This document shows, in pieces, positions 11,390-63,636 of a DNA stretch of 64,000 bases. A program made the translations under genes and the position numbers. A model generated the notes under the pieces. It made no database searches. It saw only the letters and a list, made by a program, of their open reading frames with translations, and had not been told where the DNA came from. Position 1 is the first letter of the stretch; every line of letters starts with the position of its first letter. Source of the DNA: Sacculina carcini (taxonomy: Eukaryota; Arthropoda; Thecostraca; Sacculinidae); NCBI GenBank assembly GCA_916048095.2, contig OU696571.1, positions 3,892,501 through 3,956,500 on the forward strand. Reading direction: 5' to 3'.

Positions 11390-11593
11390 GTTGATATACT
11401 CGCCATTTCCTTGATAGTGGTACTCCAATATTCACGAATTCCAAGTATATTCTTATCAAAAACCACAGCAACAACAACAACCTCACACACACATAATATA
11501 TATCAACCACACAACACAATACGCCGCATACGGTCAAATACGAAAGTTGCCAGTCTACCAAACGGGATTTCGCTAAATGATTTCTATCCAACA
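11390..11593 (-). repeat. Copia 3' LTR
   Basis: On the minus strand the LTR starts TGTTGGATAG and ends TATCAAC. It is preceded on that strand by the purine-rich AGTGGGAG tract (about 11,594-11,601), the likely plus-strand primer. Confidence 0.93.
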
Positions 11594-11678
11594 CTCCCAC
11601 TAAAACATGAAACGAAATATCAACTGAACCAAACAATACAATACAGTAAATACAATGAAAGGGATATTGATCAGACTG

Positions 11679-15707: not shown

Positions 15708-15894
15708 TTCCTTGATAGTGGTACTCCAATATTCACGAATTCCAAGTATATTCTTATCAAAAACCACAGCAACAACAACAACCTCACACACACATAATAT
15801 ATATCAACCACACAACACAATACGCCGCATACGGTCAAATACGAAAGTTGCCAGTCTACCAAACGGGATTTCGCTAAATGTTTTCTATCCAACA
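15691..15894 (-). repeat. Copia 5' LTR
   Basis: It is identical to the 3' LTR except for one base (T for A) ten bases from the outer end region. It includes the ATG of gag at 15,705-15,707. Confidence 0.93.
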
Positions 15895-16195
15895 GCAATA
15901 TCCGTGTTCAGGTCATTCTGTTGGTATTGCGCGCTGGTTTCATCAATACATCTCTGCCGTGTCATTTCAGCAATTTAATGTGGCATAGCACACCACAAGC
16001 CCATGATTTAATCCAAAACTATGCTGTCTGTTTTTGTGGTGTGATTGTGAGCGAGAGAGAGTGTGTGTGAGCGCGTTGGAGTGTGTTGATGTCACTGTGC
16101 GTGTGTGACGGTGTCGGTGGTGTGGTGTTGCGGTTGAATTGTGTTGTGGTTGGATTGCAGTGTGGCGTTAAATTTTTCGTATCTTTTTTACTACA

Positions 16196-16207
16196 AGCTA
16201 TTTCGGC
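16196..16207 (+). promoter_or_regulatory. Putative primer site AGCTATTTCGGC
   Basis: It sits immediately downstream of an LTR ending ACTACA and is identical to the sites at 45,860, 16,346 (minus) and 24,316 (minus). It is complementary to the first 12 nt of animal tRNA-Phe as remembered. A priming role is inferred. Confidence 0.5.
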
Positions 16208-16334
16208 CCGCGACCACCACTGAACCACGTCTTCTGTGCCGTCATATTCGGGAATTATCCGCACGTCGAAGTGCTGCAATTCATGACGAGGCGCTGAAGT
16301 TTTGTCAGTATGCATAATCGATGCAGGATTAAAA

Positions 16335-16346
16335 GCCGAAATAGCT
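16335..16346 (-). promoter_or_regulatory. Putative primer site AGCTATTTCGGC
   Basis: On the minus strand it directly follows an LTR ending GTTACA and precedes the gag fragment LQAISAFNPAS..., in which the site itself is translated as QAIS. Confidence 0.5.
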
Positions 16347-24304: not shown

Positions 24305-24316
24305 GCCGAAATAGCT
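24305..24316 (-). promoter_or_regulatory. Putative primer site AGCTATTTCGGC
   Basis: On the minus strand it directly follows an LTR ending AACTACA and directly precedes the ATG of the gag remnant. It is identical to the other sites of this type in the window. Confidence 0.5.
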
Positions 24317-26368: not shown

Positions 26369-28070
26369 AGTGTTCGCGTACCACCTGGAAGATCCTCGCG
26401 TACCACCAGTGGTACGCGGTACTACAGGCTAGGAACCACCGGTTTAGGGAAAGTATTTGTCAAATGCCTTTTTCAAACAAATCTGCTTGAAAGGTGAGCT
26501 CTTCGGCTCTAAGGCATGCTCACAATACTGCATATCATACAATTAAGACAAGATGACAAATAATACGATGCTGGGACACAAGTGATGTGGCCGATTTTAT
26601 TGGAGAAAAATTATCAATTGAACAAATTTGACAGGCCGCTAGGATAATACTGTTGAATTGTTCTTACTGGCTCTGCGAAAGGTTTTGATACGCTTTGAAG
26701 TCATGCAATCGGTGCTATACATAACTTGAAGAAATATGTACTTACGTCAATTTTCTTTACGCTGATATTTTCAGGCCTTCCAGCAAATGCTGACAGATAA
26801 CGCCTTGCTTGGATATTTTTCAGAACAACATTATCTTTGCCATGACATCTTCCATTAGAACAAGCGCTCTTAACCGGCACTGTTCGCACCCCTTGTTGGT
26901 GGGAACCTCAAGTTGAAGCGAATATTCTTGTTTTGAATTTGCTTTATATTCTTCCTGAAACACTTAGGACGACATTCAAGACAAATCTAAGCTGTATGAG
27001 TGGATAATCAATGAGGAAATTATTTCGTCGTCTGTAATTGTATACTTTTCATACAGCTATCGAGAATCGAGGAGGTGCGAAAACTGATTGCTGGCTTGAA
27101 AACGGTGCGAACAGTGACAAACGTTATGAATGACGGCCATATAAGGACGCTTACGTTTTATCGTTTGCTTTCTGATAGATCCTGTAGGTTTGTACGGTGT
27201 CGGTGTTGTTTTGCTGTTTGATATTGATATTTTGTGTTGCTGAGCAGTTTTGCTGTTGCTGGTTGCTGTGTCCAAGATGAAAGTTGGAGCGACACGATCC
27301 ACACAACCACTGAAAATGCACGACCATGATTGTTCGGCCAGAATAATAACGTGAAACACCTCCCGGAAGCCACATCCTCTCCCGAATACCCCCTCTCCTG
27401 AGCCCCACCATAACCCCCCTGAACACCACATCTCCTGAACCACTCATAAATGCCGACTATGAACTTTTTGCGTGTAGTTGCTCATGTTAGACCAGACCCT
27501 TGCATCTTCAAGCAATAACACTAATTTATCGAAAATCGCACTGGAAATCAAAGCAAGCAATGCAATGAGAAGTAACAATATTCCTTTACAATATTTGCGC
27601 ATATGGTTTGATGAAAAATGATGTTTAATCATGATGATCATGGTTTCATGCTTAATCCTAATGACGCATCTAGGATAAGACATGGTGACGTTGGGATATT
27701 CTCCGTTTTGGAAAATATATTGAGAAATTGTATGGTATGTATGATCGAATGGCACCAAGATAGGCCAGGCGAGAACGTGCAGGAGTGCCCAGAACGCAGC
27801 CAGGAGCTTGACCTAGGTCTGCCTCTGTTAGAGCCGCCGCTAATCCCTGCTCACGTGGTCAACACGTGCAAGTTGCAGCGTGCATTGACGCATCGACGTC
27901 AACGCCCATGTGCAGCGGCTAGCGCTGCACCGTCGGCCCTTGCACAGGCGGTGCAAGAACGAAGACGATGGGTATATAGAGGAAAAGGCGCTGGTGAGAA
28001 TGTCGCCTGGTGGTTCTTGTACTAATGTCAAGAGAAGGCCGTAGATGGCGGTCATTAAGCCCATGATTTA
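26369..28070. repeat. Composite repeat block, copy 2
   Basis: It starts inside the right part of the hAT MITE seen intact at 52,866-53,205 (GTTCGCGTACCACCTGG) and runs collinear with about 53,130-54,785. The minus frame at 27,057-27,443 and the plus frame MVCMIEWHQDR... (27,738-28,025) recur in the other copies. I do not recognise either as a gene. The right end overlaps the 27,786-32,142 segmental duplication. Confidence 0.75.
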
Positions 28071-28189
28071 ATCAAAAGTTATGCTGTCTGCTTTCCAGCG
28101 CCGGCTCAGAACCAGGCGAGAACGTGCAGGAGTGCCCAGAACGCAGCCAGGAGCTTGACCTAGGTCTGCCTCTGTCACAGCCACCGCTA

Positions 28190-28870
28190 ATCCCTGCCAG
28201 CCTGCCAGGCTGCTCGCCAGGCTGCAATATCCGATTTCCGAATTACTCGAAGGCCAAGTACTTGTCTGTACCAAACGCCTGATACAGTGCGTCCCTCGTG
28301 CTCTGCTCACTGTGTCGCTGTTCTGGTGACAACTGGGACCACACACCAAATGCCCCGCCTGCCAGCCGTGTGGGAACAACTGACATCATGCAAATGTTAT
28401 TAAGCTCGCATATCATTTTCGCGCGCGTCCGCCACTACACTACGTTCCCACTACCGTCGAATTCAGGCACAAGACGAACATCAAGGCCGACTGTTTCCAT
28501 CATTGGTGAACTCGCGGGGAATCTTTCCTCTCGCGTCGTGCTCATGCTGCGTGCAACGAGCGATAACGCGGCCGGTTAGCTTGTAACAAAACGAAACAGG
28601 TGTATATTAAGCCGCAGCAGCAGATGAGACGAACGAAAAATGATATAATGATATAACACAACGTAAAACTAACCCAACGCACAACAACTTCTCACACCAC
28701 GCTAACACTCACACACAACTGTCCCAACACACACCACCAGGACAACTGCCCGTTCTCACTGACACAGACACACACGCACACACACCCTTGGAGTTGACAG
28801 TTGACAGTTGTCGAGTGAGCATTGTTTGCACGTGCCTGTGAGATCAAGTGAACACTGTGTGCATTATCAA
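28190..28870 (-). pseudogene. LTR and gag remnant of gypsy-like element
   Basis: Minus-strand pieces read GLDVRLVPEFDGSG and, further in, RLAGGAFGVWSQLSPEQRHS...KYLAFEQFRNRILQPGE, parallel to the gag at 23.9-24.2 kb. The LTR end TGTAACAAAACGAAAC starts at 28,582, and the primer site is degenerate (GCCGGTTAGCT at 28,571-28,581). The LTR continues to roughly 28,780-28,860, where the LINE 5' region begins. The gag is fragmentary with several frame breaks. Confidence 0.7.
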
Positions 28871-28871
28871 A

Positions 28872-29785
28872 ATGGAGCCTGAAGTATTGAAAGTCATGCT
28901 TGAAACACAAATGAATGCCTTTTGAGAGGCGACAAATGTGAAGGTAGAGAATATGAAGTCGAGGACGGACTTTCTCGAAAGGACAGTGGAAGAACTGAGA
29001 AAAAGCTTGGAACTTTCTCAAGCTGAACTTCATGAATTGAAATCTGAAGTGAAAACACTCAAAATTAAAGATGAACCATCCCGGAAAGACATGAACTTTC
29101 TCAAGACAGACAACAAAAAGCTTCAAATGAGGGCAAACTACCAGGAGGATTACAGCAGACGCAAAAATTTGTGTTTACCGGGGTGAAAGAGGCCGTCAAC
29201 GAAACATGGGAGCAAACTGCTTCCACAGTATCTGAAATAGTACAAGGAAAACTGCAGTTGCCGGCATGTGAGATCAACGAAGTACGCCGAATAGGTGCGA
29301 TCAACTCGGCTCGAGGACGGAACATAATTGTCTGCTTCAACAAGTTCAGCGACAGAGAAGCTGTCATGAGAAATGCTCGGAAACTCAAGGGAAGTGGAAT
29401 ATTTGTGAATGAGGATTTGTGCGCCGCTTCAAATGCCATCAAACAAGCACAAATTCATCAGATGAAACAAGCTCGTTCAGAGGGAAAAATTGCTTTCTTC
29501 AGACAAACTCGTCTCATCATTAAAGAAAGGAGAGACATGCTTTCTTCTGGTGCCCAGCATGCAAGAAACCTGGACGCGCCAGTGCACATTGACTCCCAGT
29601 TTCGCCCTTGTGACTCTGGAATGCTGATGTCGGCCGATAAAATTGACACGGCTTCATTGGATGGTGGTGCTGCAGCTGACTATGCGGGAGGCGCGGTTGC
29701 TGAAGTGAGATCTGCTGATGCAACTTCCGCAGGCTCAAGTGTCAGCGCTGCTCAAAGGAGAGGCAAGGAGCGGAAGAGGAGGTGA
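28872..29785 (+). pseudogene. LINE ORF1 (coiled coil / RNA-binding), broken
   Basis: The frame starts MEPEVLKVMLETQ and has a heptad-rich coiled coil (ERTVEELRKSLELSQAELH) followed by an L1-ORF1-like RRM region (NIIVCFNKFSDREAVMRNA) and a basic C-terminus. A TGA at 28,923-28,925 replaces the CGA present in the second copy, a CpG-type change, and a T is missing near 29,176 relative to that copy. ORF1 proteins of this type bind LINE RNA. Confidence 0.85.
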
Positions 29786-29816
29786 TCGCTTCACCATATA
29801 CGCCTGTCACATTGTT

Positions 29817-30947
29817 ATGCCTGTCTCATCTATGATGTCCAGTCTATCACTTAGTGGTATAACTGCAAACGAATCACATTGTAATTACATGCCATTTGCT
29901 TCAACTGACGACGACTCACTACAGAAAGAATTATCAACAGATAAGTTACACAAAACATTGAATTACACGTATAAAGTACCGCCAACTAACTCTAATCAAT
30001 CCAATTTTGACATATTTGATAATGATGTGGAATTAAACGCATTCTATAAGCCTTCATATTCCAGAGATAGTCATCATGCAGAATATGTGGAACCTAAATA
30101 TTTAGCTTCTATCAAACTCGATGGATTCACGCTGTGTAATTTGAACATCAAGTCTGCTTCCAAAAATCTACAGAATTTCATCGATACAATTGTACACAAC
30201 GGCTCAAACATTAATGTCATTGGGTTAACTGAGACACGCATGGAACCGCACTTGACACTTCTTTATGAGTTGCCTGGTTATCACATGTACAATAATCGTA
30301 GAAACGTGCACGGCGGTGGAGTGGCCCTGTATGTGTCCAACAATCATCCATCGAATTGTGTAACTCATCTCACAATCTCGGAAAATTTCATGGAAACGAT
30401 TGCTGCTAAAGTGGCTATCGACCAAAAAACAGACATTTTTCTATGTGTTTACAGACCACCCAGTGGGTGTAGGGAACAACTTATTGATGCCATGAACGAT
30501 CTACTACATGAAATTTTCTCAGATAAAAAGTTGGACGGAGTATGCGTGTTCGGGGATTTAAACCTGAACCTATCGCGGAGCAACGATAAACATGTAGCTG
30601 AATTTACTAACTTAATGTATTCATACTCTTGTTCACCGATGGTGGACCTACCGACTAGAATAACTGATACCTCGGCTACGATCCTAGACCACGTGTGGTC
30701 AACACTGCTTGAAGAAAACATATGTAATTACATAATCACAACAGATATAACAGACCACTATCCTACACTGTCACACTTTCAGCTACCAGTTCTTCCTGCT
30801 ACGCCTGTTCCTATATTGACTAGACTCTTCATACCGGAACATTTAGAGTGTTTCAGGAATCAGCTGGAAAACATCAATTGGGAATTTGTATATGATGTTA
30901 CGTGTCCTAACACCGCTTATAACATGTTTCACCAAAAAAAATTCTGA
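29817..30947 (+). pseudogene. LINE ORF2 endonuclease part, truncated
   Basis: From ATG 29,817 the frame encodes an apurinic-type endonuclease. LNIKSASKNL, IGLTETRM (catalytic Glu), VYRPPSG, GDLNLNL (Asp/Asn pair) and TTDITDHYPTL (the terminal Asp-His) are in the expected order. It ends at a frameshift-induced stop at 30,945-30,947. Downstream, pieces of the RT palm appear in shifting frames, with the longest at 31,436-31,789 (TGIDEIPAKLL...FRANYSTETAVMQFLD). The central RT motif is absent. Confidence 0.85.
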
Positions 30948-32142
30948 ATTATTCCAAATAAATTTTCCGATCGTGAGAAAAAATCCACATAGGAAAAAAA
31001 CTTGACTCCCTATCTTACACCGGCATTGAAACGAGGAGAATCTATCAAGGAAAAACACCGCTTAGAATCGCTCTCAAAAATGGTCTATCACATACGGCAA
31101 CGTTTATAAACGCTACAGAAATAAGTTGACATCAGTGCTGCGACATGCAAAAAATTTGTACTACAAAAATGTTTTGTCTGATAGTCAAGGCGACTCCAAA
31201 AAGCATTGGAAAGTTATCAATTCATTGCTGGGAAAGACTCATGACAAAACTCGTATCGACATAAGTCTTGATCCTCCGTGTGACAATGTTCCAGTCATTT
31301 AATAATCACTTCATAGGTGAAAATACTGCTAAATGCATGAATGAAGATTTCAAAAAGTACCTGCCGGAACCACCATCGTTCTCAATGTATTTGGCGCCAA
31401 CAAGCACAGCGGAAGTGAGATAAGTATTAAAAACATTGAAATCAAATGCTACTGGAATTGACGAGATACCTGCCAAGCTTTTGTGTAATGTTGCCGAATT
31501 CATATCAGAGCCTCTAACGTACATCATCAATAACTGTCTCACTAAAGGTATATTTCCTGAACAGCTCAAAACAGCCAAAGTCATCCCAATCCATAAAAGT
31601 GGCAACCAAACCTGTATGAGAAATTTTATACCTATCTCTATCTTACCGGCATTCAATAAGGTGTTTGAGAAAAAGATATGTAACCGACTAGTGGAATTTT
31701 TGGAAAAAAATGATTTCATCACCGATTATCGACATGGATTTAGAGCGAATTACTCGACTGAAACTGCTGTCATGCAATTTTTGGACTAGGTCTACACCAG
31801 TTTAGAGAAGAAAACGAACAGATCAATGAAGTTTTCAATTCCTTGATGATCATTCACTTGATGATCAACCTAGCGAGACAATCTCAAATCACAGTATAAC
31901 GAAAACATGTTTTCAACTTCTCATTGTACATATTAAGTCCAATTATATATACATATGTCCAGGCGATGGAAATTTTTACAGAGGGCCTCTTCGTCGGAGC
32001 TTATGTGGAGCTGATGTTTTATCTGCTGGTTTTCAACGTTGTTGGACTTCAGTAGTCAGGAAACGGCAGATGTCTGGCACGAAAAAAACATTTTTAGATC
32101 GATTAATTGAGTGGAAACAATCAGCAGACAGAGTTTGAACAT

Positions 32143-45117: not shown

Positions 45118-45286
45118 TGAACTAGAACTAGAGGCGTTCCACAGGGATCAGTTCTAGGTCCAGTTCTCTTTCTAATATATGTTAATGATATTGTAAATGC
45201 TAGTTCGGAAATCAAGTATACAATGTATGCTGATGACACCAACCTATTCCTTTCTGATAAGGACTTGAATGCTCTACATACCAAAG

Positions 45287-45859
45287 TGTAGTGTGAAGTG
45301 GAGATGCTTGCGCATTAAGGCATTTGTATCAGCTGACTGTTTGCGGTGTAGTGTGTTGAGGCGTGGCTTATAGCCTGCGCGTGCGGGTAGCCTGCGTGTG
45401 CGTGTGTGCGAGCGTGCATGTATGCTTGTGTGTGAACTTGCAGGCATTGATGACGTATTGGCGTATTGTTTTCCGATTGGTTGATTATTGGATGAATGTA
45501 CAAACGATCGCCTGCACCGGGCGATTCTCAACGCGTGAACTGGAGAGTGAATGTTGGGCAGTGTGTGTGAAGCGTGCGGCGGTGCTGCGTTGTGTTGAAA
45601 TGGGATTTACGTCGGTAGAGGTGGTTTATTGAGTGGTTCGTTCACTCACGGGTTATTGTTACCCGGTGGTTTATTGAGTCGTTTGTTCACTCACGGGCTA
45701 CTGTTATCTTTTGTTATTATCTAAGTATTTATATTCGTTCACTCATTCCGAGTTTATTCGAGACTGTAATTACACGTTTCCTAATTTCTGGTTGTCGATC
45801 TACCGAGACATGACGGAGAACGAAGCAACAATGACGGTTGCGGGGAATGCGGAACTACA
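45287..45859 (+). repeat. 5' LTR with gag start codon inside
   Basis: A TATTTATA box at about 45,725 would put transcription start near 45,755, so the gag ATG at 45,810 would fall in R/U5. A 40-bp duplication (GGTTTATTGAGT..GTTCACTCACGGG) occurs near 45,622-45,700. Confidence 0.93.
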
Positions 45860-46592
45860 AGCTATTTCGGCGACAAGTAATGTGGCTTTCGACCTGAGGC
45901 TGGTACCGGAGTATGACGGCAAAAAGGACCCCACAGAATGGCTCAGCAAAGTTCGGAAAATGTGTCGACTCCGAGGCGTGCGCGATGTGGCCCAAGTTGT
46001 TGGGATGAGAGTTACAGGTGATGCATATGCTGTCGTGGACTGCCTCCCCGATGTGGAACAGCTGGACCTTGAAAAAGTGGAGCAAGCTCTTCAGACCGCG
46101 TTTGGCATGGATACTTTCGGAGAGTACGACGCTTTTGTGGGGCGAAGATTGAGCGAAGGTGAGTGTGTTGATGTGTTGCTGTCCGACCTGCGCAGATTGG
46201 GAGCCAGGTGCAATATAACCGACCCAGTCTCAATAAAATGTGCTTTCGTCTCAGCAATCCCACAGACGGTGCGACATGTCCTCAGGGCGAACGCCAAACT
46301 CGACGCTATGACGCTGACCGAAGTGGTGGACAGGACAAGGGTGATTTTGTCAGAAGAGACCCACACCGTTAACACTGGACTGGCTGCTCGTTCGACAACG
46401 CGTGATCACAACCAGCAGATAAAACCCTTCAAGTGTTTCTTGTGTAACCAAGCCGGGCATTCCGCGCGTTATTGCTCTCGCCGAAAAAATGGCCCTGGAA
46501 AAGGGAGAACTGGGCCCACGTGTTTCAAGTGTGGTGAAATCGGGCATATCTGTTCACGCTGTCCGGAAAACGGCCAAGGAGGAGAGACTTAG
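45810..46592 (+). CDS. gag: Gag of gypsy-like element
   Basis: 260 residues from MTENEATMTVAGNAELQ. The first 16-17 codons are LTR sequence, and the next (QAISA) are the putative primer site. The core (VPEYDGKKDPTEWLSK...CRLRGVRDV...FGMDTFGEYDAF) resembles the gag remnants at 16.3, 23.9 and 28.4 kb. Two CCHC zinc knuckles, CFLCNQAGHSARYC and CFKCGEIGHICSRC, close the protein and should bind genomic RNA. An upstream in-frame start at 45,711 would also lie in the LTR, but the downstream ATG follows the likely transcription start. The pol frame overlaps the gag end by about 55 nt. Confidence 0.9.
   Translation: MTENEATMTVAGNAELQAISATSNVAFDLRLVPEYDGKKDPTEWLSKVRKMCRLRGVRDVAQVVGMRVTGDAYAVVDCLPDVEQLDLEKVEQALQTAFGMDTFGEYDAFVGRRLSEGECVDVLLSDLRRLGARCNITDPVSIKCAFVSAIPQTVRHVLRANAKLDAMTLTEVVDRTRVILSEETHTVNTGLAARSTTRDHNQQIKPFKCFLCNQAGHSARYCSRRKNGPGKGRTGPTCFKCGEIGHICSRCPENGQGGET
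45860..45871 (+). promoter_or_regulatory. Putative primer-binding site AGCTATTTCGGC
   Basis: It begins at the first base after the 5' LTR. It is not complementary to a tRNA 3' CCA end (no TGG). It is the reverse complement of GCCGAAATAGCT, the 5' end of animal tRNA-Phe as remembered. The 12 bases, and not the flanks, are conserved in the related copies at 16.2, 16.3 and 24.3 kb. Confidence 0.55.
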
Positions 46593-49500
46593 GTGCCAGT
46601 CTCTTCTCCTCTACCAAAACGGCGCCGATGGTCACCACTCGTGTGTTGGTCAACGACGTTCAGTGCCTTGCGTTAGTTGACACTGGATGTACTAGGAGTA
46701 TTATATCGGAGTTGTTGTGCAGAGGGCTGGCGGAATTTCATGGTGAGTCGCTGTTGACTATTAGCGGAGCTCAGATGTTATGTCAGGGTAGTTGGCCAGC
46801 GCAGATCGCGGTGGATGGAGGCAAGGCATTCGAGCTCAGCGTACTGGTGGTGAAGCACCGGCGAGCCGGTTTTGATTTCATTCTCGGACTTGACGGTATT
46901 GTGGCAATGGGTGGTATGATGCTGGACTCGAGGCGGAAACTGACGTGGGGAGTAGAATATGCACTTGCTCCGCGGGAACTGTGTGCTGCGGCAGCAGCGA
47001 ATGGGAAAGGTGTGGGTAGTGGATGTGAGCTTGAGGGCAAAGACTTCGTGGCATATTTCGATGCAAATAAAAACTCGTGGAGAGTGAAGTGGAAGTGGTC
47101 GCAACGTCCGAGTGTGCTGACGAACCGGACGGCCGAATATGCGATTGCTCCACATGCCCGTGATGAGTACCGGTCAGAGCTACAATCTTGGATTGACGCC
47201 GAATGGCTCGTTGAATACGATGAACGCGCTCATGGGCCAGTAAGAGGACTCATCCCACTCATGGCAGTCAGCCAAAAGAATAAATCCAAAGTCAGGCCGG
47301 TGATGGACTTTCGCCAATTAAATCAATTCGTGGAAATACATACGGCGGATGCTGACCTCTGCCATCACAAACTCAGAGAGTGGAGGAGGCGAGGCAACCG
47401 TATAGCCTTGTTGGATCTGACGCGCGCCTATCTCCAGGTTGAAGTCGAGCCTGCACTCTGGTGTTACCAAACAGTAATAATATCTAACAAGCGATATTGT
47501 CTGACTCGGTTGGGGTTCGGGCTAAGTGCGGCTCCTATCATAATGAAAGAGATCGTCAACTTCGTGTGTAAGCAAGATCCAAATGTCGACAGAGCAGCTT
47601 CATCGTACATTGACGACATTCTTGTCGATGAGTCTGTGTTGAGCGCAGATGAAGTGAGCAAGCATCTCTCCAGATATGGGCTGACCTGTGAAACCGCAGT
47701 GCGGGCCGACCCCTCATGTCGTGTACTGGGTCTGAGCGTTCGGCGACAGCAAAACGGATTGGCGTGGAGCAGGGATAATCCTATACCACCAATTAATGGG
47801 CCAATGACTCGCAGGTCGGTGTTTTCGTGGTGCGGCCGTCTGGTTGCTCATCTACCGGTGGCTGGATGGTTAAGACCTGCCGCTTCCTGGATGAAGCGGT
47901 GTGTGAATTCTGTGACTCAAGGATGGGATGATGTCGTTGATGACCGGTCTGTGGAGAACAAAATTTCAAATGTCATTAACAGACTCACGAATGAAGATCC
48001 AGCGCGGGGAGTATGGCGGGTGACCGGAGAAGAGGTAACTGTGTGGACTGATGCCAGCGCGATGACTCTCGGAGTGGTTTTGGAGACTAAGGACTCGGGA
48101 GTAATCGAAGACGCATGCTGGCTTCGTCGACATGAAGTCACTCATATCAACATGGCCGAGCTGGACGCTGCCATCAGAGGTATCAACATGGCCGTTTCGT
48201 GGGGTATGAAGGTGATAGACCTCTGCACGGATTCTGCAACTGTTCACCATTGGATTGGTGATGCACTGAGCGGTCGTGCCAGGCTCCGGACAAAAGCGCA
48301 TGGTGAAATGCTGATACGACGGAGAGTGTGCTTCATCAAACAGATGGTGGATGAACTCGGATTACGGGTGAAGGTGCGGCTGGTTCGATCCGCCGAAAAT
48401 TTGGCAGATGCTCTCACGCGTGTGCCAACCAGTTGGCTTGGCAGCGAATCAACAGCTGTAGGTGCGGCAGCTGCGGCTACAGCAGTCCGTGGCTCAGTCG
48501 CCGAGGATATTCCAAACATTCATGAGCGAGCAGGGCATCCAGGAATACGTCGAACATTATTTTTTGCCAAACGTGACCTCGCTAGACCTGTGAAGCGATC
48601 GGATGTACGCAATGTGGCTCGTCGTTGTGATGTATGCAACGCTATCGATCCGGCACCGGTCAAATGGCGACACGGCGCGCTGAGCGTTGCTGATATCTGG
48701 AGTCGCCTGGCCATTGACGTTACTCATTACGACAATCAGTCGTACCTGACTGTCGTTGACTGTGGCCCTTCGCGGCTTAGCGTGTGGAGACAACTGCGCG
48801 CGGCCGACAGTTATCAGGTCATACAGCACTTGGAGAGGATATTTTTTGAGAGAGGTGCACCAGCTGAACTACTTTGCGACAACGACACAGTTTTCAGAAG
48901 TCGGTCGTTTGCGGCGCTTACAGCACAGTGGGGCATCAAGCTACGTTTCAGAGCGGCGTATGCTGCAAGTGGGAATGCGATTGTTGAGCGCAATCATAGG
49001 ACCGTGAAAGTCATTGCTGCTAGAAAGGGTTGCGGCATCACTGAGGCTGTTCATTTATATAACGTCACGCCTCGCGACGGAGAGACTGGAGACAGTGCAC
49101 CAGCCAATTGTGTCTACAACTATAGAGTACGAGACTACGCGAGACCTCGGGTTAACCAGCCAAGAGAAGGAGAGATTTCCGGTAGTGGGCGGTCTAGATT
49201 CACGACTGGTGACGCAGTATGGGTTCGTCAGCGTGGGACCAGATGCACCGAGCGGTCGGCACAAGGAGTGGTAAGTGGTACTGTGTCTGAGCAGGTGGTC
49301 GAGGTTGACGGTGTGCCGCGTCATGTCCGAGATCTTCGACGCAGGAACGAGCGGAATGGTGTGGAAACCGAGCCAACCGACGGTATGTCATCAACCAACG
49401 ACTCTCCGCTGTGGGTCGGTGGTCCCGTGTCCCACTCCACTTCCAATGCAGATGTGTCCGGACGAGCTTCATCGTCAGTACAGGAGCGAGTCGACGCTGT

Positions 49501-49654
49501 TGGAGTTCATGATGATGCAGCACGTCCAGAAGTTGATGCTGATAGACGGGAACCGACGACCGTGCCAGCCGAAGACGTTCGAAAAGGCGCGCGGGTACGG
49601 CGACCACCTCCCCGGTGTTTATGTTGTGATCTTGGAGATCAGGGTGGGGTGTAG
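46538..49654 (+). CDS. pol: Pol polyprotein of gypsy-like element
   Basis: The frame opens at 46,538 (after TGA 46,535-46,537), in the -1 frame relative to gag; its first ATG is at 46,628, giving 1,008 residues. Counting from that ATG: protease LVDTGCTRSI (DTG 18-20); RT with VRPVMDFRQLN, LLDLTRAYLQVEV and YIDDI (327-330); RNase H with WTDAS (D475), MAELDAA (E511) and CTDSATV (D535). The integrase has zinc motif HERAGHPG...CDVC and catalytic D697, D751 and E787 (35 residues between the last two). The C-terminal tail is rich in Arg/Ser/Glu. All catalytic residues are present and there are no stops. The stop codon lies in the first bases of the 3' LTR. Translation probably needs a -1 shift within the overlap 46,538-46,592. 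Confidence 0.93.
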   Translation, partial: NRAYLFTLSGKRPRRRDLGASLFSSTKTAPMVTTRVLVNDVQCLALVDTGCTRSIISELLCRGLAEFHGESLLTISGAQMLCQGSWPAQIAVDGGKAFELSVLVVKHRRAGFDFILGLDGIVAMGGMMLDSRRKLTWGVEYALAPRELCAAAAANGKGVGSGCELEGKDFVAYFDANKNSWRVKWKWSQRPSVLTNRTAEYAIAPHARDEYRSELQSWIDAEWLVEYDERAHGPVRGLIPLMAVSQKNKSKVRPVMDFRQLNQFVEIHTADADLCHHKLREWRRRGNRIALLDLTRAYLQVEVEPALWCYQTVIISNKRYCLTRLGFGLSAAPIIMKEIVNFVCKQDPNVDRAASSYIDDILVDESVLSADEVSKHLSRYGLTCETAVRADPSCRVLGLSVRRQQNGLAWSRDNPIPPINGPMTRRSVFSWCGRLVAHLPVAGWLRPAASWMKRCVNSVTQGWDDVVDDRSVENKISNVINRLTNEDPARGVWRVTGEEVTVWTDASAMTLGVVLETKDSGVIEDACWLRRHEVTHINMAELDAAIRGINMAVSWGMKVIDLCTDSATVHHWIGDALSGRARLRTKAHGEMLIRRRVCFIKQMVDELGLRVKVRLVRSAENLADALTRVPTSWLGSESTAVGAAAAATAVRGSVAEDIPNIHERAGHPGIRRTLFFAKRDLARPVKRSDVRNVARRCDVCNAIDPAPVKWRHGALSVADIWSRLAIDVTHYDNQSYLTVVDCGPSRLSVWRQLRAADSYQVIQHLERIFFERGAPAELLCDNDTVFRSRSFAALTAQWGIKLRFRAAYAASGNAIVERNHRTVKVIAARKGCGITEAVHLYNVTPRDGETGDSAPANCVYNYRVRDYARPRVNQPREGEISGSGRSRFTTGDAVWVRQRGTRCTERSAQGVVSGTVSEQVVEVDGVPRHVRDLRRRNERNGVETEPTDGMSSTNDSPLWVGGPVSHSTSNADVSGRASSSVQERVDAVGVHDDAARPEVDADRREPTTVPAEDVRKGARVRRPPPRCLCCDLGDQGGV

Positions 49655-50222
49655 TGTGAAGTGGAGATGCTTGCGCATTAAGGCATTTGTATCAGCTGAC
49701 TGTTTGCGGTGCAGTGAGTTGAGGCGTGGCTTATAGCCTGCGCGTGCGGGTAGCCTGCGTGTGCGTGTGTGCGAGCGTGCATGTATGCTTGTGTGTGAAC
49801 TTGCAGGCATTGATGACGTATTGGCGTATTGTTTTCTGATTGGTTGATTATTGGATGAATGTACGAACGATCGCCTGCACCGGGCGATTCTCAACGCGTG
49901 AACTGGAGAGTGAATGTTGGGCAGTGTGTGTGAAGCGTGCGGCGGTGTTGCGTTGTGTTGAAATGGGATTTACGGCGGTAGCGGTGGTTTATTGAGTGGT
50001 TCGTTCACTCACGGGTTATTGTTACCCGGTGGTTTATTGAGTCGTTTGTTCACTCACGGGTTACTGTTATCTTTTGTTATTATCTAAGTATTTATATTCG
50101 TTCACTCATTCCGAGTTTATTCGAGATTGTAATTACACGTTTTCTAATTTCTGGTTGTCGATCTACCGAGACATGACGGAGAACGAAGCAACAATGACGG
50201 TTGCGGGGAATGCGGAACTACA
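49650..50222 (+). repeat. 3' LTR
   Basis: It matches the 5' LTR with about 10 substitutions and no indels seen. It carries its own copy of the gag ATG (50,170 region), so translation from it would run into the flanking LINE sequence up to 50,346. Confidence 0.93.
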
Positions 50223-50754
50223 CAAAGTAACAGTGGAATTGATAAAAGTAAACTCTTGGATATGTGCAAACGACCTGAATCTGAACACGACCAAAACGAA
50301 ATGCATTTTATTTACGAACAGATCAATGAAGTTTTCAATTCCATGATGATCATTCACTTGATGATCAACCTAGCGAGACAATCTCAAATCACAGTATAAC
50401 GAAAACATGTTTTCAACTTCTCATTGTACATATTAAGTCCAATTATATATACATATGTCCAGGCGATGGAAATTTTTACAGAGGGCCTCTTCGTCGGAGC
50501 TTATGTGGAGCTGATGTTTTATCTGCTGGTTTTCAACGTTGTTGGACGTCAGTAGTCAGGAAACGGCAGATGTCTGGCACGAAAAAAAACATTTTTAGAT
50601 CGATTAATTGAGTGGAAACAATCAGCATGACAGAGTTTGAACATCTGCTTATTTTTTCTTATTTTCTATTTATTTATATTTATTCTTATTTTACTCTCTA
50701 TTTATTACTATTTATTATTGGTTGTTGTTATTTATTAAATTATACTTTTACTCA

Positions 50755-56763: not shown

Positions 56764-58504
56764 CTGTGGCGTGTCATGCATATTTTATTCATTGTATAAA
56801 TGTGTGTATATTTAAGTGTGTATGCGTGCGCGTATGCGTTTATATGTATGTGCCGCACGTGTTTGTATGTTTGTGTGGCATGCCTTCTAGAGTGTTCGGT
56901 GTAGGTTAGGTGACGTGTGTCTGCGTACAACCAGCAAACACGTTTGTTGCATTTGTATACGTGTGCGTATGTGTCTCTATGTATGTGCCGCATGTGTCTG
57001 TATGTTTGTGTGGCATGCGTTCTAGAATATTCCATGTAGGTTAGGTGACGTGTGTGTGCGTGTTAGCTTGCGAAAATAGTTCAGCCAATCACAGTAGCCT
57101 ACGTGCTGGCGTGATCACATAGCTACCAATCGGGTGGTTACATTTGTCTTTTACTATTGCCTGGCCAATTGTGATCCAATGTTCATACGCGGTCGGGTCG
57201 ATGCACACGCACGGCCAAGTTTATTTAAGTCCCGTCGCCTCGGTGCGCGGGCAGTTGGACTGGGACTTTGGCAATAGCTTGACTGAGAGGGCTACTCTCT
57301 GTGTCTCGCTCGCCTTGTGTCAGCTTGACCCGAGCATCGTCCGACACATTGTGTTGTACAACGTGCTCGTTGCGATTGCCGCGCATTGGCCTAGAATATT
57401 ACCTGTATTACTTGTAACGGTGCAGTAGCTGTTTCAGTGGAGGACTCGCTACACCACTGTTACGGAATTCTGTGCCGCGGCCTTCGTGCCGAGGTTTTGC
57501 TGGTCTCCGGCCTTTGATATTTATTGCGCGATTATTATCTGTATTATTTGTAACGTTGCAGTAGCTGTTTCAGTGGAGGACTCGCTACACCGCTGTTACG
57601 GAATTCTGTGCCGCGGCCTTCGTGCCGAGGTTTTGCTCGTCTCCGGCCTTGTGATATTCTTTGTACTATTGTTACTGTGTATTTATAATATATCTGATGT
57701 GCTACACCGCTCTTTGTTATGTGCGCGCTCTGAACGAGCCTCGCGTAACAAGAAAAGCATTAATTCGAGCAATGGAGCATCGTTGATCTAGGTATTTACG
57801 TGACATATAGAGGCTACGTATAATATAGCGACACTTTCGTAAAGTAATTTTAATGTGGAGAGAGAAGCTGAGTGAAGCATCTATATATACACCAAGACTT
57901 TTAACGTGTGGCAGTATTATCAGTTGGTTCACTTGGATGGACCATAGAAGGGGTTTGCAATGGTGTTTATGCATAATTTCATGTAGTACGTTAATTGATT
58001 GATTAACACCCAAACACCTGAAGGCTATAATTCAAACAAACAAGAGACACCCGGACAAATTTGCACAGACGTTCCCGAGAACTCGAGCTAGGCAGCAAAG
58101 CTTGAGCGTAAGAGGAGTAACTGTGTGGAATGAAATAAAAAATGCACTAAACAAAGTAGGACATTGAAGACATTTAAAAAGAAATTCATTGAAGACATGA
58201 ATCAAGATATATCTAAATAAATCAGTGATGCTTCGACGTGTCGAGAGACGATCGACTGATTCAGCAGTTTGCCTATATTGGTTGTAATTATTTTCATCTT
58301 GTTACGATGCCACTGTCTTTTTTGTACGATGTCTCTATTCATTGTAAAGGGCCCACATGAAAAAAGCGCATGCTTATGTCGGTGCCTGTCGCAACGATAG
58401 TGATTCTATGCTGGTGACAAATACATGATATGATATTATAGGATTTTATTAATTTAATATAAATATTATTTTATGTGCCCGCTCTGAACGAGCTTCGCGT
58501 AACA
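56764..58504 (+). mobile_element. Solo LTR (about 1 kb) interrupted by a LINE fragment
   Basis: The insert begins TGTGGCGTGTC and ends CGCGTAACA, with GTGC on both sides (56,760-56,763 and 58,505-58,508). The uninterrupted sequence GCAGGAGTGCCCAGAACGC is present in other copies of the block. The LTR contains two internal duplications of about 135 bp: 56,844/56,980 (GTATGTGCCGCA...AGGTTAGGTGACGTGTG) and 57,397/57,532 (CAGTAGCTGTTTCAGTGGAG). A TATTTAAG box lies near 57,222. A LINE insertion (57,754-58,470) splits off its last 34 bp. Confidence 0.7.
57754..58470. mobile_element. LINE fragment with inverted 5' part
   Basis: 57,754-57,985 on the minus strand encodes RT C-terminal sequence (LPHVKSLGVYIDASLSFSLH). 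From about 58,020 on the plus strand follows the end of such a protein (LSVRGVTVWNEIKNALNK, with a frameshift) and a 3' UTR ending near ATACATGATATGATATT. The opposite orientation of the upstream part is the hallmark of twin-primed LINE insertion. Flanking copies of TATGTGC(G/C)CGCTCTGAAC plus downstream bases (57,720-57,753 and 58,471-58,504) would be a 34-bp target duplication. Confidence 0.7.
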
Positions 58505-58909
58505 GTGCCCAGAACGCAGCCAGGAGCTTGAACTAGGTCTGCCTCTGTCACAGCCGCCGCTAATCCCTGCTCACGTGGTCAACACTTGCAAGTTGCAGCG
58601 TGCATTGACGCATCGACGTCAACGCCCATGTGCAGCGGCTAGCGCTGCACCATCGGCCCTTGCACAGGCGGTGCAAGAACAAAGACGATGGGTATATAGA
58701 GGAAAACGCTCTGGTGAGAATGTCGGCTGGTGGTTCTTGTACTAATGTCAAGAGAAGGCCGTAGATGGCGGTCATTAAGCCCATGATTTAATAAAAAATT
58801 ATGCTGTCTGTTTTCCAGCGCCGGCTCAGAACCAGACGAGAACGTGCAGGAGTGCCCAGAACGCAGCCAGGAGCTTGACCTAGGTCTGCCTCTGTCACAG
58901 CCACCGCTA

Positions 58910-59590
58910 ATCCCTGCCAGGCTGCCAGGCTGCTCGCCAGGCTGCAATATCCGATTTCTGAATTGCTCGAAGGCCAAGTACTTGTCTGTACCAATCGCCT
59001 GATACACTGCGTCCCTCGTGCTCTGCTCACTGTGTCGCTGTTCTGGTGACAACTGGGACCACACACCAAATGCCCCGCCTGCCAGCCGTGTGGGAACAAC
59101 TGACATCATGCAAATGTTCTTAAGCTCGCATATCATTTTCGCGCGCGTCCGCCACTACACTACGTTCCCACTACCGTCGAATTCAGGCACAAGACGAACA
59201 TCAAGGCCGACTGTTTCCATCATTGGTGAACTCGCGGGGAATCTTTCCTCTCGCGTCGTGCTCATGCTGCGTGCAACGAGCGATAACGCGGCCGGTTAGC
59301 TTGGAACAAAACGAAACAGGTGTATATTAAGCCGCAGCAGCAGATGAGACGAACGAAAAATGATATAATGATATAACACAACGTACAACTAACCCAACGC
59401 ACAATAACCTCTCACACCACGCTAACACTCACACACAACTGTCCCAACACACACCACCAGGACAACTGCCCGTTCTCACTGACACAGACACACACGCACA
59501 CACACCCTTGGAGTTGACAGTTGACAGTTGTCGAGTGAGCATTGTTTGCACGTGCCTGTGAGATCAAGTGAACACTGTGTGCATTATCAA
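58910..59590 (-). pseudogene. LTR and gag remnant, second copy
   Basis: The minus frame 59,136 downward reads MICELKNIC...RLAGGAFGVWSQLSPEQRHS...YLAFEQFRNRILQPGE, a gag core fragment that then loses frame. The LTR end (TGGAACAAAACG at 59,302) is one base altered from the partner copy. Confidence 0.7.
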
Positions 59591-59591
59591 A

Positions 59592-60506
59592 ATGGAGCCT
59601 GAAGTATTGAAAGTCATGCTTGAAACACAAATGAATGCCTTTCGAGAGGCGACAAATGTGAAGGTAGAGAATATGAAGTCGAGGACGGACTTTCTCGAAA
59701 GGACAGTGGAAGAACTGAGAAAAAGCTTGGAATTTTCTCAAGCTGAACTTCATGAATTGAAATCTGAAGTGAAAACACTCAAAATTAAAGATGAACAATC
59801 CCGGAAAGACATGAATCTTCTCAAGACAGACAACGAAAAGCTTCAAATGAGGGCAAACTACCAGGAGGATTACAGCAGACGTAAAAATTTGTGTTTTACC
59901 GGGGTGAAAGAGGCCGTCAACGAAACATGGGAGCAAACTGCTTCCACAGTATCTGAAATAGTACAAGGAAAACTGCAGTTGCCGGCATGTGAGTTCAACG
60001 AAGTACGCCGAATAGGTGCGATCAACTCGGCTCGAGGACGGAACATAATTGTCCGCTTCAACAAGTTCAGCGACAGAGAAGCTGTCATGAGAAATGCTCG
60101 GAAACTCAAGGGAAGTGGAATATTTGTGAATGAGGATTTGTGCGCCGCTTCAAATGCCATCAAACAAGCACAAATTCATCAGATGAAACAAGCTCGTTCA
60201 GAGGGAAAAATTGCTTTCTTCAGACAAACTCGTCTCATCATTAAAGAAAGGAGAGACATGCTTTCCTCTGGTGCCCAGCATGCAAGAAACCTGGACGCGC
60301 CAGTGCACATTGACTCCCAGATTCGCCCTTGTGACTCTGGAATGCTGATGTCGGCCGATAAAATTGACACGGCTTCATTGGATGGTGGTGCTGCAGCTGA
60401 CTATGCGGGTGGCGTGGTTGCTGAAGTGAGATCTGCTGATGCAACTTCCGCAGGCTCAAGTGTCAGCGCTGCTCAAAGGAGAGGCAAGGAGTGGAAGAGG
60501 AGGTGA
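59592..60506 (+). CDS. LINE ORF1 protein (coiled coil / RNA-binding)
   Basis: 304 residues from MEPEVLKVMLETQ, uninterrupted. Residues about 25-100 form a coiled coil (ERTVEELRKSLEFSQAELHE), presumably for trimerisation. About 105-215 resemble the RRM/C-terminal domain of L1-type ORF1 (RRIGAINSARGRNIIVRF, FVNEDLCAASNA). The tail is Ala/Gly-rich then basic (RRGKEWKRR). An in-frame ATG 8 codons upstream (59,568) is possible, but MEPEV fits the partner copy. The start of ORF2 lies about 30 nt downstream of the stop. The element it belongs to is otherwise dead. Confidence 0.85.
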   Translation: MEPEVLKVMLETQMNAFREATNVKVENMKSRTDFLERTVEELRKSLEFSQAELHELKSEVKTLKIKDEQSRKDMNLLKTDNEKLQMRANYQEDYSRRKNLCFTGVKEAVNETWEQTASTVSEIVQGKLQLPACEFNEVRRIGAINSARGRNIIVRFNKFSDREAVMRNARKLKGSGIFVNEDLCAASNAIKQAQIHQMKQARSEGKIAFFRQTRLIIKERRDMLSSGAQHARNLDAPVHIDSQIRPCDSGMLMSADKIDTASLDGGAAADYAGGVVAEVRSADATSAGSSVSAAQRRGKEWKRR

Positions 60507-60537
60507 TCGCTTCACCATATACGCCTGTCACATTGTT

Positions 60538-61701
60538 ATGCCTGTCTCATCTATGATGTCCAGTCTATCACTTAGTGGTATAACTGCAAACGAATCACAT
60601 TGTAATTACATGCCATTTGCTTCCACTGACGACGACTCACTACAGAAAGAATTATCAATAGATAAGTTACACAAAACATTGAATTACACGTATAAAGTAC
60701 CGCCAACTAACTCTAATCAATCCAATTTTGACATATTTGATAATGATGTGGAATTAAACGCATTCTATAAGCCTTCATATTCCAGAGATAGTCATCATGC
60801 AGAATATGTGGAACCTAAATATTTAGCTTCTATCAAACTCGATCGATTCACGCTGTGTAATTTTAACATCAAGTCTGCTTCCAAAAATCTACAGAATTTC
60901 ATCGATACAATTGTACACAACTGCTCAAACATTAATGTCATTGGGTTAACTGAGACACGCATGGAACCGCACTTGACACTTCTTTATGAGTTGCCTGATT
61001 ATCACATGTACAATAATTGTAGAAACGTGCACGGCGGTGGAGTGGCCCTGTATGTGTCCAACAATCATCCATCGAATTGTGTAACTCATCTCACAATCTC
61101 GGAAAAGTTCATGGAAACGATTGCTGCTAAAGTGGCTATCGACCAAAAAACAGACATTTTTCTATGTGTTTACAGACCACCCAGTGGGTGTAGGGAACAA
61201 CTTATTGATGCCATGAACGATCTACTACATGAAATTTTCTCAGATAAAAAGTTGGACGGAGTATGCGTGTTCGGGGATTTAAGCCTGAACCTATCGCAGA
61301 GCAACGATAAACATGTAGCTGAATTTACTAACTTAATGTATTCATACTCTTGTTCACCGATGGTGGACCTACCGACTAGAATAACTGATACTTCGGCTAC
61401 GATCCTAGACCACGTGTGGTCAACACTGCTTGAAGAAAACATATGTAATTACATAATCACAACAGATATAACAGACCACTATCCTACACTGTCACACTTT
61501 CAGCTACCAGTTCTTCCTGCTACGCCTGTTCCTATATTGACTAGACTCTTCATACCGGAACATTTAGAGTGTTTCAGGAATCAGCTGGAAAACATCAATT
61601 GGGAATTTGTATATGATGTTGCGTGTCCTAACACCGCTTATAACATGTTTCACAAAAAAAATTCTGAATTATTCCAAATAAATTTTCCGATCGTGAGATA
61701 A
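60538..61701 (+). pseudogene. LINE ORF2 endonuclease part, second copy
   Basis: 387 residues with the same endonuclease landmarks as copy 1: IGLTETRM, VYRPPSG, GDLSLNL (Ser in place of the Asn present in copy 1) and TDITDHYPTL. It ends at TGA-type termination after FPIVR. RT fragments follow in other frames (62,156-62,524), with the same loss of the catalytic core as copy 1. Confidence 0.85.
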
Positions 61702-62524
61702 AATCCACATAGGAAAAAAACTTGACTCCCTATCTTACACCGGCATTGAAACGAGGAGAATCTATCAAGGAAAAACACCGCTTAGAATCGCTCTCAAAAA
61801 TGGTCTATCACATACGGCAACGTTTATAAACGCTACAGAAATAAGTTGACATCAGTGCTGCGACATGCAAAAAATTTGTACTACAAAAATGTTTTGTCTG
61901 ATAGTCAAGGCGACTCCAAAAAGCATTGGAAAGTTATCAATTCATTGATGGGAAGGACTCATGACAAAACTCGTGTCGACATAAGTCTTGATCCTCCGTG
62001 TGACAATGTTCCAGTCATTAAATAATCACTTCATAGGTGAAAATACTGCTAAATGCATGAATGAAGATTTCAAAAAGTACCTGCCGGAACCACCATCGTT
62101 CTCAATGTATTTGGCGCCAACAAGCACAGCGGAAGTGAGATAAGTATTAAAAACATTGAAATCAAATGCTACTGGAATTGACGACATACCTGCCAAGCTT
62201 TTATGTAATGTTGCCGAATTCATATCAGAGCCTCTAACGTACATCATCAATAACTGTCTCACTAAAGGTATATTTCCTGAACAGCTCAAAACAGCCAAAG
62301 TCATCCCAATCCATAAAAGTGGCAACCAAACCTGTATGAGAAATTTTATACCTATCTCTATCTTACCGGCATTCAATAAGGTGTTTGAGAAAATAATATG
62401 TAACCGACTAGTGGAATTTTGGAAAAAAATGATTTCATCACCGATTATCGACATGGATTTAGAGCGAATTACTCGACTGAAACTGCTGTCATGCAATTTT
62501 TGGACTAGGTCTACACCAGTTTAG

Positions 62525-63636
62525 AGAAGAAAACGAACAGATCAATGAAGTTTTCAATTCCTTGATGATCATTCACTTGATGATCAACCTAGCGAGACAA
62601 TCTCAAATCACAGTATAACGAAAACATGTTTTCAACTTCTCATTGTACATATTAAGTCCAATTATATATACATATGTCCAGGCGATGGAAATTTTTACAG
62701 AGGGCCTCTTCGTCGGAGCTTATGTGGAGCTGATGTTTTATCTGCTGGTTTTCAACGTTGTTGGACTTCAGTAGTCAGGAAACGGCAGATGTCTGGCACG
62801 AAAAAAACATTTTTAGATCGATTAATTGAGTGGAAACAATCAGCATGACAGAGTTTGAACATCTGCTTATTTTTTCTTATTTTCTATTTATTTAAATTTA
62901 TTCTTATTTTACTCTCTATTTATTACTATTTAATATTGGTTGTTGTTATTTATTAAATTATATTTTTACTCAGTGTTGGCTGTTGTTGCTTATTGAATCA
63001 TATTTATTGTTGTTGTTGTCTATTGAATCATATTTATTGTTGTTGCTGTTTATGGAATCATATTTATTGTTGTTGTTGTTTATTAGATCATATTTATTGT
63101 TGTTGTTGTTTATTGAATCATTTTTATTGTTGTTGCTGCTTATTGAATCATATTTATTGTTGTTGTTGTTTATTGAATCATATTTATTGGTGTTGTTGTA
63201 TATTGAATCATATTTATTTGTGTTGTTGTTACTTATTGAATCATATTTATATTTATTGTTGGATGTTTCTTATTGAATCATATTTATTGTTCTTGATTGT
63301 TACTTATTACTTATTTATTAATATTTATTCTTATTTATTGATGGCTGTTATTTACTGAGTCACATATTCATTGTTGATTGTTATTATTTATTGAGGAACG
63401 TGGGCGGAGTGACATTATGGATTGTTATCGGATGATGGCTCATTATTTATTGTTATTTATTTATTATTTTCTTTCCAACTCTCTTTCTAGACTTTTTTCT
63501 CTTCGAACTTTCTTTCTCTCTGAATCCTTTGGGCGCTTCCGGTACATGGGGCCACCTTAGGGTGGTAATAGTGCTTGCACTCTTCCCATGCTACTGGATT
63601 TGCCTGTAATTAATAATAATTATAATAATAATATCT
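62525..63636 (+). mobile_element. LINE 3' UTR with minisatellite and tail
   Basis: The 3' UTR core (62,565-62,865), the 30-bp minisatellite (62,985-63,230, Leu/Tyr frames), GAGGAACGTGGGCGGAGTGA, a TC-rich stretch and CATGGGGCCACCTTAGGG lead to the TAATAATAATTATAATAATA tail at about 63,610-63,636. It is collinear with 50,340-51,404. Confidence 0.85.

Follow-up and report, generated by a model that had tools for sequence, protein, structure and literature searches.

How can an LTR retrotransposon begin reverse transcription when the sequence next to its 5' LTR matches the 5' end, and not the 3' end, of a tRNA? The question is raised by the window analysed here, a stretch of 64,000 nucleotides of Sacculina carcini DNA, in which the initial annotation had noted an identical 12-mer after four LTR ends and had suggested that a 12-nt 5' fragment of tRNA-Phe may serve as primer. 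In the accessible text of a survey of plant LTR elements, three types of primer are distinguished, namely an entire tRNA, a half tRNA generated by a cut in the anticodon stem, and a self-primer (PMC6317226). On the basis of the sequence comparisons described below, we consider it probable (roughly three chances in four) that the 12-mer is the primer-binding site (PBS) of a diverse Ty3/gypsy-like group, the minus strand of which would be primed by the 5' 12 nt of a host tRNA. This would be tRNA-Phe in most cases, with tRNA-Ile(AAT) taking its place in some families.

An element of Ty3/gypsy type with a putative PBS at the LTR edge

Among the sites of the window, the one at 45860-45871 (plus strand; AGCTATTTCGGC, the complement of nt 1-12 of animal tRNA-Phe) is that for which the LTR edge is demonstrated by an LTR pair. 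It abuts a 5' LTR (TGTAGT...ACTACA, 45287-45859, plus strand) that blastn paired with a 3' LTR (49650-50222, plus strand) at 98.3% identity over 574 columns (45286-45859 versus 49649-50222), the limits of both being set from this pair and their edges; no 12-mer follows the 3' LTR. A polypurine-tract-like GGGTGGGG, recognised by inspection of the sequence, lies immediately before the 3' LTR (49642-49649, plus strand), and the CAAAG that precedes the 5' LTR (45282-45286, plus strand, edges read off the sequence) is repeated after the 3' LTR (50223-50227, plus strand) as a 5-bp target-site duplication.

The gag ORF (45810-46592, plus strand) starts at an ATG within the LTR, encodes a CCHC zinc knuckle, and is translated across the site as LQAISA. 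The pol frame (46538-49654, plus strand, open from stop to stop) encodes protease-like, RT (YIDD), DUF7047 and RNase H-like domains, as well as the zinc-binding domain and core of an integrase. Paired LTRs, short terminal inverted repeats and a 5-bp target duplication, all observed in this one element, are those of the Ty3/gypsy type, as is the order gag zinc knuckle, protease, RT, RNase H and integrase, which was obtained by Pfam on separate pieces, with protease matches under the curated cut-off and an RT match under it in one piece and barely over it in another. The window copy has the RT motif YIDD and an RNase H-like D-E-D-D pattern; the third motif of the RNase H domain (48068-48259) is of the TDS type, and the sole Pfam match of this domain was RVT_3, with none of the usual gypsy RNase H models. 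A strong DUF7047 match lies between RT and RNase H.

The Phe-type site is exact and recurs throughout the assembly

Three further Phe-type sites are present in the window, at 16196-16207 (plus strand, after an LTR-like end ...ACTACA and followed by inverted gag sequence of a neighbouring copy), 16335-16346 (minus strand, after ...TTACA) and 24305-24316 (minus strand, after ...ACTACA, with an ATG one base further on). The identity claimed for the four sites was borne out: all are exact, each is preceded by ACA, and the flanks differ on both sides. Two LTR-like ends, each with its site, point towards one another at 16097-16346, separated by 127 bases that correspond to the gag start of one of them, an arrangement that looks like a rearranged or self-integrated copy.

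Within the window alone, five matches with at most two mismatches were found against a mean of 3.34 in shuffled sequence, which is not above chance, and weight was therefore placed on exactness, LTR adjacency and recurrence across the genome. In the assembly (264,436,087 bases, 43 contigs), the 12-mer preceded by ACA (ACAAGCTATTTCGGC) occurs 924 times on the forward and 920 times on the reverse strand (1,844 in total), as opposed to none on either strand for the reversed pattern. When IMG/VR was scanned for ACAAGCTATTTCGGC, 33 stretches came up, and tblastn (E up to 1) matched none of them to the RT-RNase H region of the window element.

In the sampled loci, the Phe-type 12-mer adjoins many unrelated LTR ends. 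Single-linkage clustering of 122 sites kept from the fetched loci gave 30 clusters, after exclusion of L009-L038, L054-L056 and L058-L063, of sites with less than 100 nt of flank, and of sites with identical flanks. Representatives with LTR ends in ACA or ATA numbered 27 (21 Phe-type and 6 Ile-type, the latter described below), a rough number because the clusters chained in places. The Phe-type sites read came mostly from contig C1, and AGCTATTTCAGC is the site in three of the 21 rows, including two that had been fetched as variants. Outside the 12-mer and the LTR end, no column of the 21 Phe-type representatives exceeded 0.62 bits downstream or 0.28 bits upstream; since the 12-mer was selected for in the sampling, it is these flanks, and not the core, that are informative. 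The six Ile-type representatives are too small a set for column information to be judged.

Two local structures were seen among the Phe-type loci. In L128 and L145 (G000:C1:5463886 and 5468240), the LTR-site-gag junction recurs 4,354 bases apart, the second site reading AGCA, which looks like a tandem element array. In L001 (1490-1540), AAATAGCT after the site forms a small palindrome inside a local direct repeat of TCATTATATTTGCC.

A second site matches the 5' end of host tRNA-Ile(AAT)

A fifth site and its duplicate had been described in the initial annotation as degenerate. This description does not hold: at 28570-28581 (minus strand, after ...TTACA), the sequence reads AGCTAACCGGCC, and its complement, GGCCGGTTAGCT, is identical to nt 1-12 of the host tRNA-Ile(AAT). 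The duplicated copy lies at 59290-59301 (minus strand, after an LTR-like end ...TTCCA). Both copies are contained in a segmental duplication of about 4.4 kb (27784-32142 and 58504-62862, 98.6% identity). The 5' part of the host tRNA-Ile(AAT), GGCCGGTTAGCTC..., searched for as GGCCGGTTAGCTCNNNNGGNNAGAG, was found at 10 places in the assembly and at none in the control, and aragorn identified tRNA-Ile(aat) in each of the six loci fetched; some of these loci overlap, and the nine calls represent seven distinct places.

A search that fixed only ACTACAAGCTAV (ACTACAAGCTA plus 'not T') returned 78 matches compared with 95 in the reversed control; the total is thus not above this control, and only a recurring 7-mer is informative. 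Twenty-seven of the 78 continue with exactly ACCGGCC, against about 0.006 expected at uniform composition, and three more differ from it by one or two bases; the 27 copies are not independent, 18 sharing one continuation and six another. A further 21 of the 78 belong to one tandem satellite on contig C29, and the remainder are single sequences. This satellite (G000:C29:6845255-6846620), with a spacing of mostly 40 bp and 21 copies of ACTACAAGCTAGTGAAACAGGT, is unrelated to the sites. The candidate primers considered were host tRNAs with TAGCT at nt 8-12; versions corresponding to tRNA-Lys, tRNA-Thr(CGT) and tRNA-Ala(CGC) were absent among the 78 matches, the search pattern being one that the tRNA-Cys version is unable to match.

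The Ile-type site was present in 19 of the 20 regions fetched for it (L102 is without it), and these regions have four different leaders. Together with the window copies and L067, this makes about six Ile-type groups, in which the site recurs after LTR-like ends, the LTR edge being defined here by the comparison of L098 with L133 (see below) and by ends in ACTACA. These observations suggest a common rule, that the site is the complement of tRNA nt 1-12, verified in the assembly for tRNA-Ile and taken from other animals for tRNA-Phe. The tRNA-Ile case thus provides independent support for the proposal of priming by a 12-nt 5' tRNA-Phe fragment, at the level of what the sites would pair with.

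That the 12-mer is the exact complement of the start of animal tRNA-Phe, as given in the initial annotation, holds for the fly, according to published probes (PMC7038984, PMC6542536), and for human, according to a published primer (PMC10505166), both tRNAs starting with GCCGAAATAGCT in the accessible parts of these papers. No tRNA-Phe gene was found in the 264-Mb assembly with several patterns, looser patterns and one blast search. Aragorn, looking for tRNAs only, found none at the 15 places with GCCGAAATAGCTC or the 20 with GCCGAAATAGCT[AGT]A. As a general tRNA search scored 63 of 15,013 candidates, the tRNA set recovered from the assembly is incomplete; the host genome may also be only partly represented in these contigs, and the 5' end of the host tRNA-Phe is therefore assumed from fly and human, which is the main gap in the argument.

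Related loci with sites of different type

Several pairs of loci combine related sequence on one side of the junction with sites of different type. L098 (Ile-type) and L133 (Phe-type) have LTR ends identical at 128 of 130 nt, and are unrelated past the site (25 of 129); L103 and L161, as well as L099 and L110, have related downstream regions and differing site types. In L067 (1484-1514, reverse strand), an Ile-type site is followed by seven bases, TGTTATA, and then by a Phe-type site, a tandem arrangement that may have been left when elements using different primers recombined. We infer that these four patterns fit template switching together with copying of the primer.

A model for priming by the 5' end of a tRNA

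If the tRNA is indeed the primer, then, the LTR ending where the site begins in the standard scheme, the primer 3' end would be U12 of the tRNA, which would have to be cut between nt 12 and 13. We propose that the 5' end of the tRNA anneals to the element RNA and that the tRNA would then be nicked where the duplex stops, the simplest candidate for this cut being the RNase H of the element itself. This would be the geometry of Tf1, with a tRNA supplied in trans. Plus-strand synthesis would copy the 12-nt primer, so that the site would be rewritten in each round. Such copying would account for a site that is exact and sharply bounded at nt 1 of the tRNA, and a change from a Phe-type to an Ile-type site would be explained by the 3' TAGCT that both primers share. 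Some features count against the model: a primer of 12 nt is short, nt 1-12 of a tRNA normally lie hidden within the acceptor and D stems, and a few copies have an altered site (GCA or TCA, see below).

The full version of the model goes further, in that it would define a fourth class of primer, in which the mature 5' end of a host tRNA anneals and the element RNase H cuts after nt 12, as a trans version of Tf1, common to some twenty or more gypsy-like families of this genome and with exchange of tRNAs by primer copying. For this more specific proposal, we judge the odds to be even.

Alternative explanations

The alternative that survives best is a variant of the main reading, in which a ready-made cellular 5' tRNA fragment would be loaded and no enzyme of the element would cut the tRNA. 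Known 5' tRNA fragments are usually longer than 12 nt, which speaks against it, and their 3' ends would miss the LTR edge unless they were trimmed. Ty5 and copia are already primed from internal tRNA cuts, according to the accessible text of PMC5371799, which lends this variant some plausibility; on balance, we regard it as unlikely.

Alternatively, the primer could be another, non-tRNA RNA that ends in ...GCCGAAATAGCT or ...GGCCGGTTAGCT. The failure to find a tRNA-Phe gene in the assembly contigs would be in line with this, but two distinct 12-mers both match nt 1-12 of tRNAs, one of them a verified host tRNA, and such an RNA is very improbable as the source of both.

In self-priming of the Tf1 type, the element's own RNA would provide the pairing partner of the site, its 5' end lying within the LTR. 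The Tf1 site likewise adjoins the LTR. Primer length is also similar (11 nt in Tf1, from the accessible part of PMC7175516, and 12 here). However, at 65 sites with at least 600 nt upstream, a complement of the site was no more common than expected from shuffled primers (longest match, up to 700 nt), in a test in which some of the sites are chance ones and the upstream span was set without LTR lengths. The two long upstream matches that did occur belong to a single locus, in which two sites are inverted relative to each other. Within the window element's own LTR, the best 12-nt match to the primer has five mismatches. As the upstream complement is not above chance, self-priming of this type is not supported, and we consider it highly improbable.

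The initial annotation had offered a coding explanation, conservation of the site for the residues QAIS of gag, which can be widened to LQAIS(A) at the gag start. In its favour, all three window copies that are followed by gag have the site in the gag phase, translation from an ATG in the LTR runs through the site in the copy at 45860, and an upstream ATG in the QAIS phase is also found in L003, L041 and L045; the longest frames are in this phase in these three loci and in L064, L077 and L093. By contrast, the open frames of the L008/L052 family (350 and 341 aa) start at an ATG 15 nt past the start of the site, in a different phase, which is also that of the L085 family, and L087 uses the third phase. 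LTR ends in ...ATA (L064, L065 and L077) create a TAA in the QAIS phase at the junction, and the Ile-type site would encode QANRP. Furthermore, the pattern left open to synonymous change (TACARGCNATHTCNGC) has 735 and 725 matches (1,460; 0 and 5 in the reversed control), and among the 100 of these matches listed, 92 carry the exact 12-mer, six have GCA and two TCA. The GCA variant occurs in at least two families: three of the six cases were read, two in the family of the window element, of which one is located 4,354 bases beyond an exact site in an apparent tandem element, and one in another family. Given the differences in phase and the coordinated change to the 5' end of another tRNA, a coding constraint is rejected as a general cause, and we leave it only a marginal chance. 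Finally, insertion of the element beside tRNA genes was rejected, since the 12-mer borders the 5' LTR internally and is absent after the 3' LTR.

Comparison with known priming systems

Priming by the 5' 12 nt of a host tRNA would share features with several known systems. As in priming from a tRNA 3' end (Ty3, retroviruses and most gypsy elements), the putative primer is a host tRNA, the site lies right after the 5' LTR, and gag-pol is Ty3/gypsy-like; unlike in these elements, the site does not start with TGG or match the acceptor 3' end, and is complementary to the opposite end of the tRNA.

Elements of the copia/Ty5 kind (plant Bianca, Osser and others) are alike in that there is no TGG start and that an internally cut tRNA gives the 3' end of the primer, as it would here. 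Ty5 is primed from a cut in the anticodon loop and copia uses a half-tRNA (PMC5371799), the half-tRNA primer being initiator tRNA-Met, or tRNA-Ile in Bianca, cut in the anticodon loop or stem, as far as the accessible texts go (PMC5371799, PMC6317226). Here, in contrast, nt 12 and 13 would flank the cut, and the complementarity of the site is to nt 1-12 of tRNA-Phe or tRNA-Ile(AAT) rather than to the anticodon arm. Another LTR element of the window (11390-15894) has 204-bp LTRs that are 99.5% identical and a minus-strand open frame of 1374 codons. The ...TTTTGGGCCCAGACGC that follows its LTR resembles the site with which copia-type elements pair to the anticodon arm of initiator tRNA-Met, and the known half-tRNA mode may thus sit beside the proposed one in the window.

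Concerning Tf1/sushi elements (Tf1, Tj1 and Tcn1), the likeness would be that of a short duplex (11 versus 12 bp) formed by the site with an RNA 5' end, the rest of this RNA being cut off so that a 3' OH is freed. In Tf1, it is the first 11 nt of the RNA that pair, and the RNase H cut falls between nt 11 and 12 (PMC7175516), and a similar self-priming geometry is described for Tj1 (PMC4600332), both according to the accessible portions of these papers. The RNA of Tf1 is its own transcript, whereas the upstream regions studied here lack the complement and the matching 5' ends are those of host tRNAs.

Fungal GalEa elements have no PBS and conserve a hairpin site that is left unexplained in the accessible text of PMC5445492; they are similar in having a conserved non-standard motif at the PBS position for which there is no accepted priming model, but their motif is palindromic and no tRNA match is reported in that text, whereas the motif described here corresponds to a tRNA 5' end. 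Cryptococcus Tcn2-5 have been proposed to use novel priming, as mentioned in the part of PMC7175516 available to us. The mode proposed here is nearest to half-tRNA priming in its substrate and to Tf1 in its geometry, and matches none of these systems. A literature search that extended to the sequences of the two sites and of the start of tRNA-Phe, most subscription papers lying outside its scope, did not bring up a recognised mode of this kind; some of the papers that matched these sequences concerned tRNA probes or primers.

Implications

Use of tRNA nt 1-12 would, if true, add a fourth type of primer to the three listed in the accessible text of PMC6317226. PBS finders that scan tRNA 3' ends would label such elements primer-less. 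The proposed mode predicts strong-stop DNA that starts at the LTR edge and carries the RNA GCCGAAAUAGCU or GGCCGGUUAGCU. If confirmed, it would link tRNA 5' fragments to the replication of transposons, and the Phe-type and Ile-type families would represent a naturally occurring example in which one primer tRNA has been exchanged for another.
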